Shown: in pieces, positions 32,838 to 39,951 of the stretch
Position numbering within the stretch: position 1 is the stretch's first letter
Layout of the letters: each line of letters starts with the position of its first letter
Assembly (NCBI GenBank): GCA_031272455.1
Contig: JAISTS010000120.1
Location: forward strand, 1 to 44,157
DNA from: Tannerella sp.
Lineage (GTDB): Bacteria; Bacteroidota; Bacteroidia; Bacteroidales; Tannerellaceae
Length of the DNA stretch: 44,157 nucleotides
Direction of reading: 5' to 3'
Notes under the pieces: model-generated
The model's database searches: none
Seen by the model: the letters and a program-made list of their open reading frames with translations, nothing else
Told to the model about the DNA's origin: nothing
Position numbers and translations under genes: made by a program

Positions 32838-35153
32838 TTACCTGACGACTGCAATCCGCGCCACGACGCTTTCACGGGCGTTTGGTGTTGCGGCGATGAC
32901 TAAGTAAATGCCTGTTGCTACGCGGTTTCCGCGGCTGTTGCGGCAGTTCCATGCCATTTGACCGCCGGCGGATTTGCCCTGATAGAGCAGGTTGCCGTTG
33001 AGGTCGGTGATTTTCACATTTGAATTGTTCATCAGTCCGGTGATGATGACTTGCCCGTCGTAGTCGGGACGGACGGGGTTTGGATAGGCGTAAACGTCTG
33101 AATAGCTTTCGCTTGGCTCGGTTGCTTCGCTGGTGTATGAAATCAGTCCCTTGTCGGTGCCGATAAAGACTTCGCCTGTCCGTTGGTTCACCGCAATGCT
33201 CTGGATATTATTTGAATACAGTGGCGAATTGTCGGTCGTGAACTGGTGGATTGTCTCCATCCCGTCGGCGCTGACGAGGAAGATACCCGAACCGGTCGTA
33301 CCTATCCATTTGCGATTGCCGCCGTCAACGGCTATTGCATTGATTTGCTCGCCGTTAAGGAAATAATAATTCTCGCCGTCGTCGTTTGTCCTGACAATCC
33401 GGTTGCAGTACAGGTTATCGGGCTTGTCGATAGCATTAGCGGGCGAGGTGCAGTAAATCGGACCTTTATCCGTACCGATCCATATCTCGCCGTTCAAATC
33501 TTCTGTTATACAATAATATACACTGGCTTCGATTGCCGTCCCTGTGCCTGATTTGAAGGATGTGAAAAAGTTGGAAACGTCGTCGGAATTGTCTGTGGGC
33601 GTCTCGCGGTCGTCGAAAACGAGTATTCCGGAGCGGTCTTTGCTTCGTGCCACGTTAACCCATTTATGCCCTTTTTTTGTGATTAAAATCTTGTCCACAA
33701 GATAGGCGGAAGTTCCTGCTCCTGAATATTTTAGCGCTTGCCAGTTGCCATCTGCCGTACGGACGACAATCCCGTTTTCGACCTCGCAGTTTGTCATCCA
33801 CAGATTGCCGTTGCTGTCGAAAGTAACGCTGCCGATGCGGTTGTAGTTTTTGTTGCCTGCGATAGCGCTCTGAATGGGGCTGTTGGTGTGGTTGTATAGC
33901 TGAACGTATTGATAATCATTTATTTCCAGCAGTCCTTCGCCGTAGGTTGAGATGAAAAGATGCGTCTCGTCGTTCGGGTCAACAGCCACTCCGGTATAGT
34001 CTCGGCAGGTGTAGCCAACTTGCTTATTCACAGCGTCTTCGTCGAGATTTGTCCATTCGCCGTTCTCATACGTCATCAGTGTTCCGGCGTTCCAAAAGCG
34101 GTCTGTCCACCGTCCGCCGCCCGCGACAAGCAGTTTGTCGCCGTGCATCGTCATAAATGCCGCCAGATTGCGTTTCGGACCTGCCGGATTAAGCTCCGTA
34201 ACCGTCGTTTCGTATTTGCCTGACGAGATCTGCCTTATTCCCGTCAGACCGTTCAAACCGCCTGCTATCCAGTAAGTTCCGTCGTTTTTCAGACTTGACA
34301 CGCCGTTCACCGTGCCCAGATTTACCGTTTCGCGTGCGGAAAGCGAGCTAAATACGTACATCGTTGATGATGAGTTGATTATAAGGCGGTCGGTTTGCAT
34401 TTTCATCTTTTGCAGTCCGGACTGTTTCAGCAGCGATTTCACACTGCTGCCCGAGTCGATATAATACACCCCGACGCCATCAACGCGCAGACAGATAACA
34501 TTCTGAAACACACAGATATTGCGCACTTTGGCAGCATCAAATTCTTCGGTCTGCAATGGCATCTCTTTCCAATTGTGAATATCGAGCAAATTGTCTGATA
34601 ATGAGCCGGTAAGAATGTCATTATCTGTCGCGGCATAAATTGTCCCGTCTTTGACGCAGCAATCATAAGCCGCGCAGTCGAGTTTATAGGTTTCCGAGAT
34701 TTCCTTTTTCGCAAGCGAGACCGCCATCACCCCGAAAGCCGTTGATATATAGGCGGTTTCGTTGTCGAATGAGATATTGTTGATTGTTTTGTCAGGAATA
34801 TTGGTCGTATTTTTCAGGAAAGGCAAGTTGTAAATGCCATTCTCGCTCAGCAGGTCGATATTGCCGTTTCCGTAAACTATAACTAAAGTCTTTGTGCCTG
34901 AATGATAGTCAATTAAGCTGATATCCGAATCGCTCATACCGTTTTGTTTCGTATGGACGGTTACGCTGTTATCATCCTTGCCATAGCTGTACAAAGTGCC
35001 GTCAGCAAGCGCATAGACGCGATTTGGCGCTTCGGCAACCTGTTTTGTGTCGTAGGTGGCGGGGTAGAGCGTCCACTCGCCAACGCGCTGCGCCGTAATT
35101 GTTTGCGATAAAAGCAGGACGACGGCTATTATTAATTTAAAACGTTCTGTCAT
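32838..35153 (-). CDS. porZ: Type IX secretion system protein PorZ (beta-propeller with CTD)
   Basis: PorZ is a surface-exposed part of the T9SS attachment complex (PorU, PorV, PorQ, PorZ) and is thought to bind anionic LPS and pass it to the sortase PorU (recalled). The 771-residue length is close to the P. gingivalis protein. A signal peptide (residues 1-21, ending in TITAQ) is followed by RVGEWTLYPATYDTKQVAEA. Two blocks of propeller-like repeats come next (GNLWMTNCEVENG, GEIWIGTDKGPIYC, NRKWIGTTGSGIFLV, GEVFIGTDKGLISY). The end is a T9SS CTD (VYAYPNPVRPDYDGQVIITG to VATGIYLVI). Its start overlaps the rdgB stop by 4 bp, and it is the last gene of the leuS'-yitT-rdgB series. The repeats plus CTD could fit another propeller substrate, but start sequence and size favour PorZ. 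Confidence 0.82.
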   Translation of the reverse strand: MTERFKLIIAVVLLLSQTITAQRVGEWTLYPATYDTKQVAEAPNRVYALADGTLYSYGKDDNSVTVHTKQNGMSDSDISLIDYHSGTKTLVIVYGNGNIDLLSENGIYNLPFLKNTTNIPDKTINNISFDNETAYISTAFGVMAVSLAKKEISETYKLDCAAYDCCVKDGTIYAATDNDILTGSLSDNLLDIHNWKEMPLQTEEFDAAKVRNICVFQNVICLRVDGVGVYYIDSGSSVKSLLKQSGLQKMKMQTDRLIINSSSTMYVFSSLSARETVNLGTVNGVSSLKNDGTYWIAGGLNGLTGIRQISSGKYETTVTELNPAGPKRNLAAFMTMHGDKLLVAGGGRWTDRFWNAGTLMTYENGEWTNLDEDAVNKQVGYTCRDYTGVAVDPNDETHLFISTYGEGLLEINDYQYVQLYNHTNSPIQSAIAGNKNYNRIGSVTFDSNGNLWMTNCEVENGIVVRTADGNWQALKYSGAGTSAYLVDKILITKKGHKWVNVARSKDRSGILVFDDRETPTDNSDDVSNFFTSFKSGTGTAIEASVYYCITEDLNGEIWIGTDKGPIYCTSPANAIDKPDNLYCNRIVRTNDDGENYYFLNGEQINAIAVDGGNRKWIGTTGSGIFLVSADGMETIHQFTTDNSPLYSNNIQSIAVNQRTGEVFIGTDKGLISYTSEATEPSESYSDVYAYPNPVRPDYDGQVIITGLMNNSNVKITDLNGNLLYQGKSAGGQMAWNCRNSRGNRVATGIYLVIAATPNARESVVARIAVVR

Positions 35154-35734
35154 AATTCGTTACGGGATAAAAATTCAACTAATTTACTGACGGCGACTGC
35201 GCGATGACTGATGGTATTTTTGATTTCTTCGCCAAGTTGAGCAAACGTTTCAGTCTGATTTTCAGGGATAAACACGGGATCATACCCGAAACCGCCCTCG
35301 CCATGCCGCGTTTCTGCAATCTGACCGTTAACGATGCCTTCAAAAAAATGCTCTTCTCCGTTAATAATCAGAGCAATAACCGTACGGAAACGCGCTGTCC
35401 GGTCGGTCTGCCCCGACAGTTCGTCAAGCAGTTTGCTGATATTGGCATTGCTGTTGTGCTGCTCACCTGCGTAACGTGCTGAATGAACGCCCGGTCTGCC
35501 ATTCAAAGCCTTGACTTCCAGGCCTGTATCGTCGGCAAAACAATCCAATCCGAATTTTTGGCAGACATATTGCGCTTTCTGTAAAGCGTTGCCTTCCAGC
35601 GTGTCAGCCGTTTCCGGTATATCTTCATCCAACTGCAGTTCGGGCAGTCCGACAATCGAAATGCCGTCGGGCATCATTGCGCGTACTTCCTTGAGTTTGT
35701 GCAGATTGTTGGTTGCAAATACGATTTTTTTCAT
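35150..35734 (-). CDS. rdgB: Non-canonical purine NTP pyrophosphatase (RdgB/HAM1)
   Basis: This enzyme hydrolyses ITP, dITP and XTP to monophosphates and so keeps deaminated purines out of DNA and RNA. The 194-residue length is standard. Motifs are FATNNLHKLKEVRAMM (residues 5-20), DTLEGNALQKAQ, CFADDTGLEVKALNG with the catalytic Asp region, GVHSARYAG, GFGYDPVFIP and the end SHRAVAVSKL. All key positions appear intact. It overlaps porZ by 4 bp and follows yitT by 60 bp. Confidence 0.96.
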   Translation of the reverse strand: MKKIVFATNNLHKLKEVRAMMPDGISIVGLPELQLDEDIPETADTLEGNALQKAQYVCQKFGLDCFADDTGLEVKALNGRPGVHSARYAGEQHNSNANISKLLDELSGQTDRTARFRTVIALIINGEEHFFEGIVNGQIAETRHGEGGFGYDPVFIPENQTETFAQLGEEIKNTISHRAVAVSKLVEFLSRNEL

Positions 35735-35794: not shown

Positions 35795-36667
35795 TTAGCG
35801 TATCGGGTCGAAACCTTCGCCATAAACGCCGCGCACCGAGCTTTGCGATATAAACGCATCCTGATCTATAGACTTGATCAGGCGGAAGATAGAGATGCTT
35901 TCGCGACTTTTTGCCATCAGTACGACGACCTTGACAGGCTCTTTGGTATAGCCACCCTGACCGTCAAGAATGGTGCAGCCGCGCCCCAAATCGCGTATGA
36001 TGCGATCGGCTATTTCGTCATATTTCTGCGAAAAAATCATAAACTGAACCGACTGATTATTAGCGTTTAGCACCTTGTCGAGAATGTAGTTGTTGAAAAA
36101 CATTTCCACGAAACCGAAAACGATTTTGTCCACGTCGTGGAAGATGAAATACGACGAGCCTATGATGAAAAAATCGCAGAACAGCAATGTTCGTCCGATA
36201 GATATATGCTTGTATTTGTGTATGATAGCTCCGATAATATCCGTGCCGCCGGTGCTGCCGTTCGACGAGAAAATGATGCCCAGCCCCGTTCCGCACAGCG
36301 CACCGCCTATCAGAATGGACATAAACGGCTGACCTTCAATGACCGGCTTGCCGTCGAGCAGCCACTCGAAAAACATCAGCGAGAACGTCAGCGACACGAC
36401 GCCAAAGATGGTGTTGAGCATAAATCGTAGCCCTAACATCTTGTAAGCCAAGATTAAAAGCCCGACATTGATAGCGGCGTAAGTCAGCGAAACCGGTATT
36501 TTCGTTACGAAAAACAGCAGCGAACAGATACCTGTAACTCCACCCGGCACGATCTCGTTCGACAGGATAAAACCGTTGAAACCAAAGCCATAGATCAACG
36601 TCCCGACGATAATAAAGAGGTAGTCGCGCAGGGGATGATAAATCTTGTATAAGGAGTTTTTGACCAT
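35795..36667 (-). CDS. YitT family membrane protein (DUF2179)
   Basis: The 290-residue protein has five to six membrane segments (LFIIVGTLIYGFGFNGFILS, VSLTYAAINVGLLILAYKML and so on) with the family block NEIVPGGVTGICSLLF and SSNGSTGGTDIIGAIIHKY. A soluble C-terminal DUF2179 domain follows (VQFMIFSQKYDEIADRIIRD, GQGGYTKEPVKVVVLMAKS). The transport substrate is unknown. Its ATG lies only 5 bp after the leuS' stop, so it is cotranscribed with it. Confidence 0.9.
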   Translation of the reverse strand: MVKNSLYKIYHPLRDYLFIIVGTLIYGFGFNGFILSNEIVPGGVTGICSLLFFVTKIPVSLTYAAINVGLLILAYKMLGLRFMLNTIFGVVSLTFSLMFFEWLLDGKPVIEGQPFMSILIGGALCGTGLGIIFSSNGSTGGTDIIGAIIHKYKHISIGRTLLFCDFFIIGSSYFIFHDVDKIVFGFVEMFFNNYILDKVLNANNQSVQFMIFSQKYDEIADRIIRDLGRGCTILDGQGGYTKEPVKVVVLMAKSRESISIFRLIKSIDQDAFISQSSVRGVYGEGFDPIR

Positions 36668-36672
36668 GAAAA

Positions 36673-37854
36673 TCAGACAACTACGTTGGCAATCTTATTA
36701 GGCACGACGATAACTTTCTTTACCGGTTTGCCTTCAATCCATTTTTGCGAATTTTCGTTTTCGAGGACGGCTTTTTCGACCTCTTCCTTGCTTGCACCCG
36801 GCTGAAAATCAAGCGTAAACCGCGCCTTTCCGTTGAACGAAACGGTATATTTCACCGTGTTTTCTTTCAGATACTCCTCGTTGTAATCGGGGAAACGGGC
36901 GTCGCAAACGGTAGTCGTGTTGCCCAGACGGTGCCACAGCTCTTCGGCTATATGCGGCGCGAAAGGCGAAAGGACAATGACAAAATCCTGTAATACAGCG
37001 CGTTTATTGCATTTCAGGGCTGTCAGCTCGTTGGCGCAAATCATAAACGCGGCGACGGATGTGTTGAACGAGAAATTTTCGATGTCCTGCCCGATTTTCT
37101 TAATCAGTTTGTGGATGGATTTGAGTTCGTCAGGCGTCGGCTGCGCGTCGGAAACGGAAAAATTATCGCCATCGAAAAACAGGTTCCAGAACTTGCGCAG
37201 AAAGCGGCTTACGCCATCTATCCCGTTGGTATCCCAAGGTTTAGACTGCTCGACCGGACCGAGAAACATCTCGTAAAGCCGCAGCGTGTCGGCGCCAAAT
37301 TTTTCGACCACATCGTCGGGATTGACAACGTTATACATTGATTTTGACATCTTTTCGACTGCCCAGCCGCAGACGTATTTGCCGTCTTCAAGGATAAACT
37401 CAGCGTCGCGGTATTCGGGATTCCAGTTGCGGAACGCCTCCAAATCAAGCACATCATTGGAAACAATATTGACGTCAACGTGGATGGGCGTTACGTCGTA
37501 ACTGTCTTTCAATCCGAAAGATACGAATTTGTTGGCGCCTTTGATGCGATAGACGAAATTCGACCTGCCCTGGATCATCCCCTGATTTATCAGTTTGCGG
37601 AACGGCTCTTCGTCTTTGACATAGCCGTAATCGTGCAGGAATTTATTCCAGAAACGGCTGTAAATCAGGTGTCCGGTAGCATGCTCTGTGCCGCCGACGT
37701 ACAGATCCACATTGCCCCAGTAGTCGTTAGCCACTTTCGACACTAACGCCTTGTCGTTGTGCGGGTCTTCGTACCGCAGATAATAAGCCGACGAGCCTGC
37801 AAAACCGGGCATCGTAGCCAGTTCGAGCGGATATTTCTTGTTTTTTGAGTCCAT
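36673..37854 (-). CDS. leuS: Leucine--tRNA ligase, C-terminal part only (N-terminal half absent)
   Basis: The 393-residue product matches only the second half of Bacteroidales LeuRS. It begins [20 protein letters not shown], i.e. where the catalytic domain resumes after the CP1 editing domain, and carries [30 protein letters not shown] (KMSKS at 168-172), the anticodon-binding helices and a C-terminal domain ending [15 protein letters not shown]. The HIGH-containing N-terminal catalytic part and the whole editing domain (more than 500 residues) are missing. The frame cannot be extended: a TAA lies in frame 9 bases before the ATG, and beyond it comes a promoter and dxs. Nothing in the remaining reading frame is broken. 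It stands at the head of a unit with yitT, rdgB and porZ. Alone it could not charge tRNA-Leu. It may be a split-enzyme subunit, a remnant of a duplicate, or an assembly artefact. Confidence 0.9.
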
Positions 37855-37874
37855 TTTATCTTATTTTCCGACCG

Positions 37875-37905
37875 CAAAAGTAATACTTTTTCAGAGCATT
37901 GCAAA
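37875..37905 (-). promoter_or_regulatory. Promoter for the leuS' unit (Bacteroidetes type)
   Basis: On the minus strand TTTG (complement of 37902-37905) and TACTTTTG (complement of 37875-37882) are 19 bp apart. The ATG of the shortened leuS lies only about 20 bp downstream, so the truncated gene is placed like a gene with its own start signals. Confidence 0.68.
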
Positions 37906-37995: not shown

Positions 37996-39951
37996 ATGAT
38001 TTCAGACAACGAAGAACAACTATTGACGGGAATTGACAGTCCTGCCGACCTGCGAGCCTTGCCTGCTGCTAAATTGGAGCAGGTTTGCCGCGAGTTGCGT
38101 CAATATATTATTGATGTACTGTCGGTTAATCCCGGACATCTGGCGGCGAGTCTTGGCACTGTGGAGCTGACCGTCGCCCTGCACTACGTTTTCGATACGC
38201 CCCGCGACCGCATCGTGTGGGACGTCGGGCATCAGGCGTACGGGCACAAGATTTTGACGGGCAGACGCGACGCTTTTCACACTTTGCGCCGTTTCAACGG
38301 CATCAGCGGCTTTCCCAATCCGGCTGAAAGTGAGTACGATGCGTTTATTGCCGGACATGCGTCCAATTCCATTTCGGCGGCGCTCGGGATGGCTATCGCT
38401 TCGGAGCTGAAACACGAAGCCGAGCGGCATGTCGTAGCCGTGATTGGCGACGGCGCAATGACCGGCGGGCTTGCCTACGAAGGTCTGAACAACGCCTCGA
38501 CAAATCCAAACAATATACTTATCATCCTCAACGACAACGATATGGCTATCGACCAGAATGTCGGCGGGTTGAGCAAATATCTCGTCAATATCACGACGAG
38601 CAAGACCTACAACTGGATACGTTATAATATTTATCAGCGGCTGCTGAAACTGAATATCATCTCCGAAAATCGTCGCGAGAATATTCTGCGGTTCAACAAC
38701 AGCCTCAAAGCGCTTATCAACCGTCAACATAATCTGTTTGAGGGATTCAGCATACGCTATTTCGGACCGGTTGACGGGCACAACGTCGCCGACCTCGTCC
38801 GTAAGTTGAACGATATCAAGCACATGAAAGGTCCGAAGTTGCTGCATATCAAAACGACCAAGGGCAAGGGCTTCAAACCTGCCGAAGAATCGGCGACCGA
38901 ATGGCACGCGCCGGGGAAATTCAACAAAGAGACGGGCGAGCGCCTAATACACGTTAACCTGAACGAGCCGCAACTCTATCAGGATGTTTTCGGACATACT
39001 CTGGTCGAGCTGGCGGAGCACGACAAGCGCGTTGCAGGCATCACGCCCGCTATGCCGACAGGCTGCTCGATGACGTATATGATGAAGGCATTTCCGGAGC
39101 GCACGTTCGACGTCGGAATAGCCGAAGGACACGCAGTAACGTTTGCCGCAGGATTGGCGAAAGAGGGGATGATACCGTTTTGCAATATCTATTCGTCGTT
39201 TATGCAACGCGCTTATGATGAGGTAATTCACGACGTCGCCATACAGCGACTGCACGTCATCCTGTGCCTCGACCGCGCCGGACTTGTTGGCGAAGACGGC
39301 GTTACGCATCACGGCTTGTTCGATATGGCGTGCCTGCGACCGGTGCCGGGGCTGACTATCGCTTCGCCACTCAACGAAGTTGACCTGCGCAACCTGATGT
39401 ACACGGCGTACAAGACCGACGACGGACCGTTCGTTATCCGTTATCCGCGCGGCAAGGGCGAATTAGTCAACTGGCGCAACGAGATGCAGATGCTGCCCGT
39501 CGGCAAGGGGCGCAAGCTCAGCGACGGCGACGAGGTGGCTCTGCTGTCGATAGGTCCTATCGGCAACGAGGCGCGTAAAGCTATCGAAATACTTGCGAAA
39601 GAGAGCTTTTCGGTTGCGCATTATGATATGATATTTTTGAAACCGATAGATGAAGACATTCTGCACGAAGTTGGTGCTAAGTTTCGGCATATCATCACGG
39701 TTGAAAACGGGACGCTGACAGGCGGTCTGGGCAGCGCCGTGTCGGAATTTATGGTTGAGAACGGCTACGGGGCGCGTATCAAGCGTCTCGGCGTCGGCGA
39801 TGAATTTGTCGCACACGGCAGCATCGCCGAACTGCAGCGCAGCTGCGGATTGGATGCCGAAAGCATTGCCGCTGCTGTCCGCGAACTTGTCCTTCGGGAC
39901 GAAAAGAAAAAGAATACTGCGATGTTGTCATTTTTTAATATACTGTCATGA
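37996..39951 (+). CDS. dxs: 1-deoxy-D-xylulose-5-phosphate synthase
   Basis: DXS condenses pyruvate and glyceraldehyde-3-phosphate, with thiamine diphosphate, in the first step of the MEP isoprenoid pathway. The 651-residue length is usual. Visible features are [15 protein letters not shown], the ThDP site [20 protein letters not shown] with GDG and a later [19 protein letters not shown], the catalytic Glu region [18 protein letters not shown], and [16 protein letters not shown]. The frame is open upstream to a TTG at 37966, but that would place codons over the -7 element, so the ATG at 37996 is the start. TrkA overlaps its end by 4 bp; the pairing of these genes has no obvious metabolic reason. 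Confidence 0.96.

Follow-up and report, generated by a model that had tools for sequence, protein, structure and literature searches.

The window, a contig of 44,157 nucleotides (C22) from the draft Tannerella genome G000, carries the C-terminal half of a leucyl-tRNA synthetase (LeuRS) as a free-standing gene. In a joint reading with the matching half and with related loci, this C-half is very likely one subunit of a working two-subunit LeuRS, most plausibly created by insertion into the linker, and paired in G000 with a foreign N-half. An essential LeuRS appears to have become two separable parts.

The LeuRS halves of the window genome

The C-half was identified by ORF reading and by profile and Pfam matches. 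The relevant features of the window are as follows.

35150..35734, minus strand: rdgB-like (Ham1) gene, following yitT in the order conserved among relatives
35795..36667, minus strand: yitT, the gene after leuS in the ancestral order, 87-89% to fused relatives G024, G015, G062 and G009
36673..37854, minus strand: free-standing LeuRS C-half, 393 aa with ATG start, kept as a free gene in relatives
37834..37854, minus strand: break point, where the C-half has its new start and opening residues (MDSKNKK before YPLEL) in place of the linker of fused relatives
37875..37904, minus strand: promoter-like site TTG-N19-TACTTTTG, at -50 to -21 of the C-half
37996..39951, plus strand: dxs, divergent upstream neighbour, 80-81% to G015, G024, G009 and G062

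The initial annotation described a C-terminal LeuRS part with KMSKS, and this is borne out: the protein covers positions 480-842 of the 843 in TIGR00396, Pfam matches Anticodon_1 and tRNA-synt_1, and KMSKS occupies residues 168-172. The half comprises the KMSKS part of the catalytic domain, the leucine-specific region, which is whole, and the anticodon-binding and C-terminal domains; the stretch before KMSKS is continuous. That no HIGH half or editing domain accompanies it in the window, as also claimed, agrees with the TIGR00396 search, which gave no match on the contig besides the C-half. The clean start and promoter with 19-bp spacing that had been noted are both present, in the form of an ATG with an in-frame stop three codons upstream and the TTG-N19-TACTTTTG site at -50, which we take to be the Bacteroidales-type promoter consensus. 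Sites of this class number 17 in the 88,314 strand-bases of the window, which corresponds to an expectation of about 4% in any 200 upstream bases. Promoter-like sites precede five of seven free C-halves (they are absent in G065 and G066) and all nine N-halves examined, some consisting of the -7 element alone.

Downstream, yitT starts 5 bp past the C-half stop, and the 3' side was correctly regarded as native context: fused relatives have the order leuS-yitT, so the C-half occupies the former leuS locus. Because dxs is closest to its counterparts in G015, G024, G009 and G062, the window contig is native to G000.

The assembly of G000 amounts to 2.75 Mb in 139 contigs and is 85.5% complete. A whole-genome search for a separate N-terminal LeuRS ORF, proposed with the initial annotation, located the matching half on a different contig (C75).

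G000:C75:16536-18194, minus strand: LeuRS N-half, 553 aa, TIGR00396 positions 1-470

This gene has its own ATG and a TGA stop after GRAKGWNYQPSEL, matches the editing domain PF13603 (CP1) and the N-side of tRNA-synt_1 in Pfam, and contains the HIGH-type motif GLHVGHP. The two halves together span the whole TIGR00396 model (1-470 and 480-842 of 843), and on the LeuRS of T. thermophilus, for which structures have been solved, the alignment of the N-half ends at residue 460 and that of the C-half begins at residue 496. The complete second leuS that was also sought was not found by TIGR00396 in the contigs of this 85.5% complete genome, where the remaining matches score at most 81.6 bits and are taken to be related synthetases.

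The N-half from contig C75 would contribute the CP1 editing domain and the HIGH side of the active site; the KMSKS side, the leucine-specific region, the anticodon-binding domain and the C-terminal domain would come from the C-half. As HIGH and KMSKS are on separate chains, these would have to associate, presumably in a non-covalent manner, to form one active site.

Structure predictions of the window C-half (mean pLDDT 69.0) and of a fused homologue (mean pLDDT 62.4) were too weak to locate the break or an interface. In the C-half model, residues 98-164 and 211-393 are for the most part confident, unlike the catalytic parts, in a prediction from 29 alignment rows that proves nothing.

Free halves in related genomes and the genes between them

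The proposed comparison with close relatives revealed, beside the leuS-yitT order of fused relatives, at least one free-standing LeuRS half in 32 genomes and both halves in 18. The genomes presumably come from termite guts, although the isolate prefixes Nc350 and Md513 do not occur in the termite-gut paper PMC11481507. The genus of G000 (41 genomes) comprises 10 split members (G000, G016, G004, G032, G018, G005, G014, G012, G036 and G064), 25 fused frames, part of which are cut by contig ends or gaps, and six genomes with no LeuRS or a fragment. The C-half is seen in G000, G016, G012 and G064; in G005, 39 aa of it stand before yitT at a contig edge. Neither the C-half nor yitT was found in the assemblies of G004, G014, G032, G018 and G036, where the C-half/yitT block may be unassembled. 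In the family of G066 (45 genomes), a C-half stands free in 17 genomes (in G253 as two pieces, each on its own contig), 19 are fused (four cut by contig ends) and nine gave no C match at E 1e-60. The N-half was looked for in 29 of the 45 and is free, with its own stop, in 18; four of these 18 have no C match. The N-halves of G064 and G274 are cut by contig ends, and G067 (labelled Prevotellaceae) has a free C-half with only a short N fragment. Across 198 genomes of the order, all at least 90% complete except G000, G000 has the sole clear free C-half among the matches listed, which also include partial ones in G195 (372 aa) and G042 (299 aa). The 80 nearest loci consist of 72 complete fused genes, four free C-halves and four loci cut by contig ends.

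In six genomes of G066's family a single contig carries the two halves, on one strand and with the N-half first.

G271: halves 39 bp apart, no insert
G066: halves 448 bp apart, DUF1016 remnant between them
G253: one DUF1016 gene of 376 aa between the halves, with small gaps on both sides
G274: DUF3843 between the halves
G259: four ORFs between the halves
G257: about 11.5 kb between the halves, with a type II methylase, a DpdE/ZorD-like SNF2 helicase, DUF1016, RhuM, DUF5655 and others

In the last five the flanks are the same and the cargo between them varies. In G283 the N-half contig and the C-half contig overlap by 119 bases, which would place the halves about 4.5 kb apart. Genes next after free N-halves include DUF1016 (G018, G032), DUF3843 (G065), a methylase (G005) and an IS200-type transposase (G269). 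Given tandem halves with accessory genes between them, the linker seems to be a site where insertion fissioned leuS; the most plausible origin would be the insertion of accessory genes into the leuS linker of gut Bacteroidales, after which the halves would have drifted apart.

It is possible, though less likely than not, that the split is real and the inserts are not its cause, the linker having broken by point change or rearrangement and the genes having entered later by chance. Such a course would fit the insert-free junction of G271, the separated halves of G000 and its split genus mates, in which the upstream neighbours of the C-half change, and the PADLOC matches that occur among outer neighbours too. 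Against it, order and strand are kept in all six one-contig tandems. DUF1016 is uncommon, with 27 matches across 13 split genomes (in G032 a single one, adjoining its N-half), and recurs between or flush with the halves, with none among 44 outer neighbours. Orientation also differs, as 40 of 46 inner neighbours (a count that includes four that are the other LeuRS half, and one gene twice) lie on the same strand as the half, compared with 28 of 45 outer ones. PADLOC matches at least 6 of 40 inner neighbours and several of 44 outer ones, so that a general enrichment of defence genes between the halves relative to the outer flanks is not shown; these sets are counted without LeuRS halves, a spurious 87-aa ORF and the repeated gene on the inner side, and without an 83-aa ORF on the outer. 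Many inner neighbours are ordinary genes.

A wider form of fission by insertion has about an even chance of being right. The leuS linker would be an insertion hotspot in an essential gene, where partly defence-type cargo cuts LeuRS, the halves travel and reassort, and cargo loss occasionally leads to re-fusion, for which G281 is a candidate; G000 would run a mosaic LeuRS.

At locus L159 (G036), the N-half is followed directly by rdgB (Ham1) fused to a PorZ-type propeller gene, and the C-half and yitT are missing from the order.

Break point, selection and separate inheritance

The same short, length-variable linker is broken in every junction read from split genomes. N-halves end in GRAxxWxY and a short tail, and C-halves begin with M and a few residues, followed by (Y/H/F)PLEL. 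Measured from PPLG to TMPG, the linker has 15 to 32 residues in 72 fused relatives, a range that marks it as tolerant, and many residues are invariant on both sides of the break. For pairs unsaturated at synonymous sites dN/dS is about 0.07-0.17 in both halves (dN 0.050 and dS 0.47 for the N-halves of G000 and G016; dN 0.057 and dS 0.62 for the C-halves of G065 and G066), and C-half pairs that are saturated at synonymous sites have dN of 0.13-0.18. On this sequence evidence both halves are under purifying selection.

It is quite improbable that the halves are duplicate remnants or serve other roles, with an intact LeuRS unseen elsewhere. The completeness of the split genomes, 55-94% where figures are given (59-91% for split genus mates), means that an unseen complete leuS is possible in any single one, and G012 has a 449-aa contig-edge piece of fused-type LeuRS beside its two halves, with contamination put at 4%. 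Nevertheless, the TIGR00396 search of G000 and of the other split genomes covered, all drafts, did not turn up a complete leuS, and in G066's family the split genomes that have a C-half gave a single C-part match apiece (in G253, two pieces of one). The residual duplicate with a new role that the initial annotation entertained is disfavoured by the absence of an intact copy from these searches, by the retained catalytic and editing motifs and by purifying selection. Its suggestion of a lineage with a split LeuRS is the one upheld, given the matching half in G000, the search there that found no complete leuS and the recurrence of the split in many separately assembled genomes. The two-subunit LeuRS is real and conserved, and probably functional as a pair.

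The halves of G000 have different histories. RpoB, found in 28 of 30 genomes (none from G018 or G069), groups G000 with the fused G015, G009 and G024 (100/98), and seven split genomes form their own clade (100/100). The N-half of G000 instead groups with those of G016 and G036 (100/97), and its placement with G024, G015, G009 and G062 is rejected by the AU test (p=2.3e-42). Third-position identity between G000 and G016 is 76% for the N-half versus 47% for RpoB, 42% for LptD, 43% for yitT and 49% for the C-half. LptD, which lies on the contig of the N-half, is 74-75% to G024, G009, G062 and G015 and 62% to G016. Since LptD, dxs and yitT all point to these four genomes, the two contigs belong to one organism; and since the N-half departs so far from the 42-49% seen elsewhere, beside a native LptD, these comparisons indicate that it was acquired horizontally and that the C-half did not come along with it. 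In G000 the C-half lies by yitT at the old leuS locus, and the N-half would be a foreign copy akin to those of G016 and G036. A Gfo/Idh gene adjoins the N-half in both G000 and G064, with a third-position identity of 60% versus 40-50% for RpoB, dxs, yitT and the C-half. An empty N-half site beside LptD is not demonstrable in G024, G009 and G062, where the other neighbours of the N-half are absent.

An assembly or binning artefact, in which a misjoin broke a complete leuS or a chimeric bin combines two organisms, is hardly credible: the genomes are drafts throughout, the G000 halves lie on different contigs and their nearest relatives differ, but in many genomes each half is a separate gene in the interior of a contig, with a start, a stop and neighbours of its own, six genomes hold both on one contig, and LptD by the N-half shares its nearest relatives with dxs and YitT by the C-half, making the misjoined contig once considered very unlikely. 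Restoration of a single chain by a trans-splicing intron, split intein or frameshift is just as implausible, and nothing was found in its favour: at gathering scores Rfam gives no match, group I/II intron RNA included, in the window or at six further loci, the stretches that end the N-halves and open the C-halves are short, variable and by eye free of intein-like sequence, and the halves are on different contigs in most genomes.

For the C-half of G000 a G024-like origin is not rejected (AU test, p=0.146), yet over its last third it resembles G065, G066 and G068 more closely than G024. Grouping the C-half of G012 with those of G000, G016 and G064 is rejected (p=0.0044), and the N-half of G012 groups with that of G014, as does its RpoB. 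A single clade of all N-halves is not rejected by the AU test (p=0.256), and one of all C-halves is (p=0.037; p=0.315 without G012 and G067). Trees with weak branches require nine (N) and seven (C) changes between the split and fused states. A simple single origin of the split was discarded on the C-half clade test and these 7-9 changes. The LeuRS trees were calculated without the 449-aa piece of G012, without N rows below 400 aa in one tree and 360 aa in another (G064, G273, G265 and G278 among them), and without C rows below 300 aa (among them G253, G262 and G288).

The fused G281 is nested in a split clade and has a longer linker; it is possibly a re-fusion or a state before insertion. The fused G024, G015, G009 and G062 have a long WAWD-type linker, yet their C-part falls among split C-halves in the tree, possibly through replacement by recombination or through re-fusion.

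Comparison with known split synthetases

In Aquifex, the N-terminal LeuRS subunit contains HIGH and the CP1 editing domain and the C-terminal subunit the anticodon-binding side. The two-subunit enzyme of Aquifex aeolicus is, by its title, the subject of Xu et al. 2002, and from the title of Ma et al. 2006 the split reportedly falls in the leucine-specific domain. As in A. aeolicus, the essential LeuRS is here encoded by two genes, with no complete leuS found in the draft genomes. The break differs in lying about 90 residues or more before KMSKS and leaving the leucine-specific region whole in the C-half, the Aquifex site being taken from that title. The phyla are unrelated, and the halves here are dispersed, horizontally moved or flanking inserted genes. 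Natural split LeuRS other than that of Aquifex was not found in the open-access PMC papers (CC0, CC BY, CC BY-SA) that were searched. The Bacteroidales split is apparently a second, independent one at another site. Compared with fused bacterial LeuRS (TIGR00396, for example T. thermophilus 1h3n), the halves have the same motifs and homology over 1-470 and 480-842, whereas those enzymes are one chain, as in the 72 complete fused genes among the nearest loci.

PMC4975002 has a passage on the Aquifex LeuRS and describes the split pheT of Altiarchaeales as natural chain fission of an aminoacyl-tRNA synthetase (aaRS) at a poorly conserved loop, with halves on different contigs and as a shared derived trait. 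The LeuRS split resembles it in being an aaRS chain fission at a poorly conserved stretch with halves on different contigs. It concerns another enzyme in another domain of life, and transfer of a single half is not reported for pheT in these passages of PMC4975002.

With fused, tandem, tandem-with-insert and dispersed stages in many genomes, the path of an essential enzyme from one chain to two subunits becomes traceable. Transfer of one aaRS half without the other amounts to a natural subunit-exchange experiment, and the break point offers a ready-made site for engineering a split LeuRS.

Several further sequence features were noted in LeuRS genes. The N-half of G257 (L341:2937-3545) has about 200 more in-frame residues, which overlap the type II methylase gene and have no Pfam or PADLOC match. 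Fused leuS genes with unusually long, odd linkers occur at L312 (G281) and L363 (G262), either of which may be a re-fusion or precede insertion. An in-frame DUF559 (Vsr-like nuclease) domain, flanked by repeat-like letters, lies in the CP1-entry loop of the N-halves L153 (G012), L158 (G018) and L352 (G268), by Pfam, and of the fused L025, L027, L037/L068 and L039, by sequence; inserts of this type are present in 6 of the 70 distinct CP1-entry loops read, and nothing on DUF559 with LeuRS was found in the open-access PMC literature. Repeat-like letters also stand in frame in the N-halves L009, L151 and L159, such as MENGKWKMEN (G000) and LTPNPSPKERG (G036), and it seems that this essential gene takes up short repeats in its tolerant loops.
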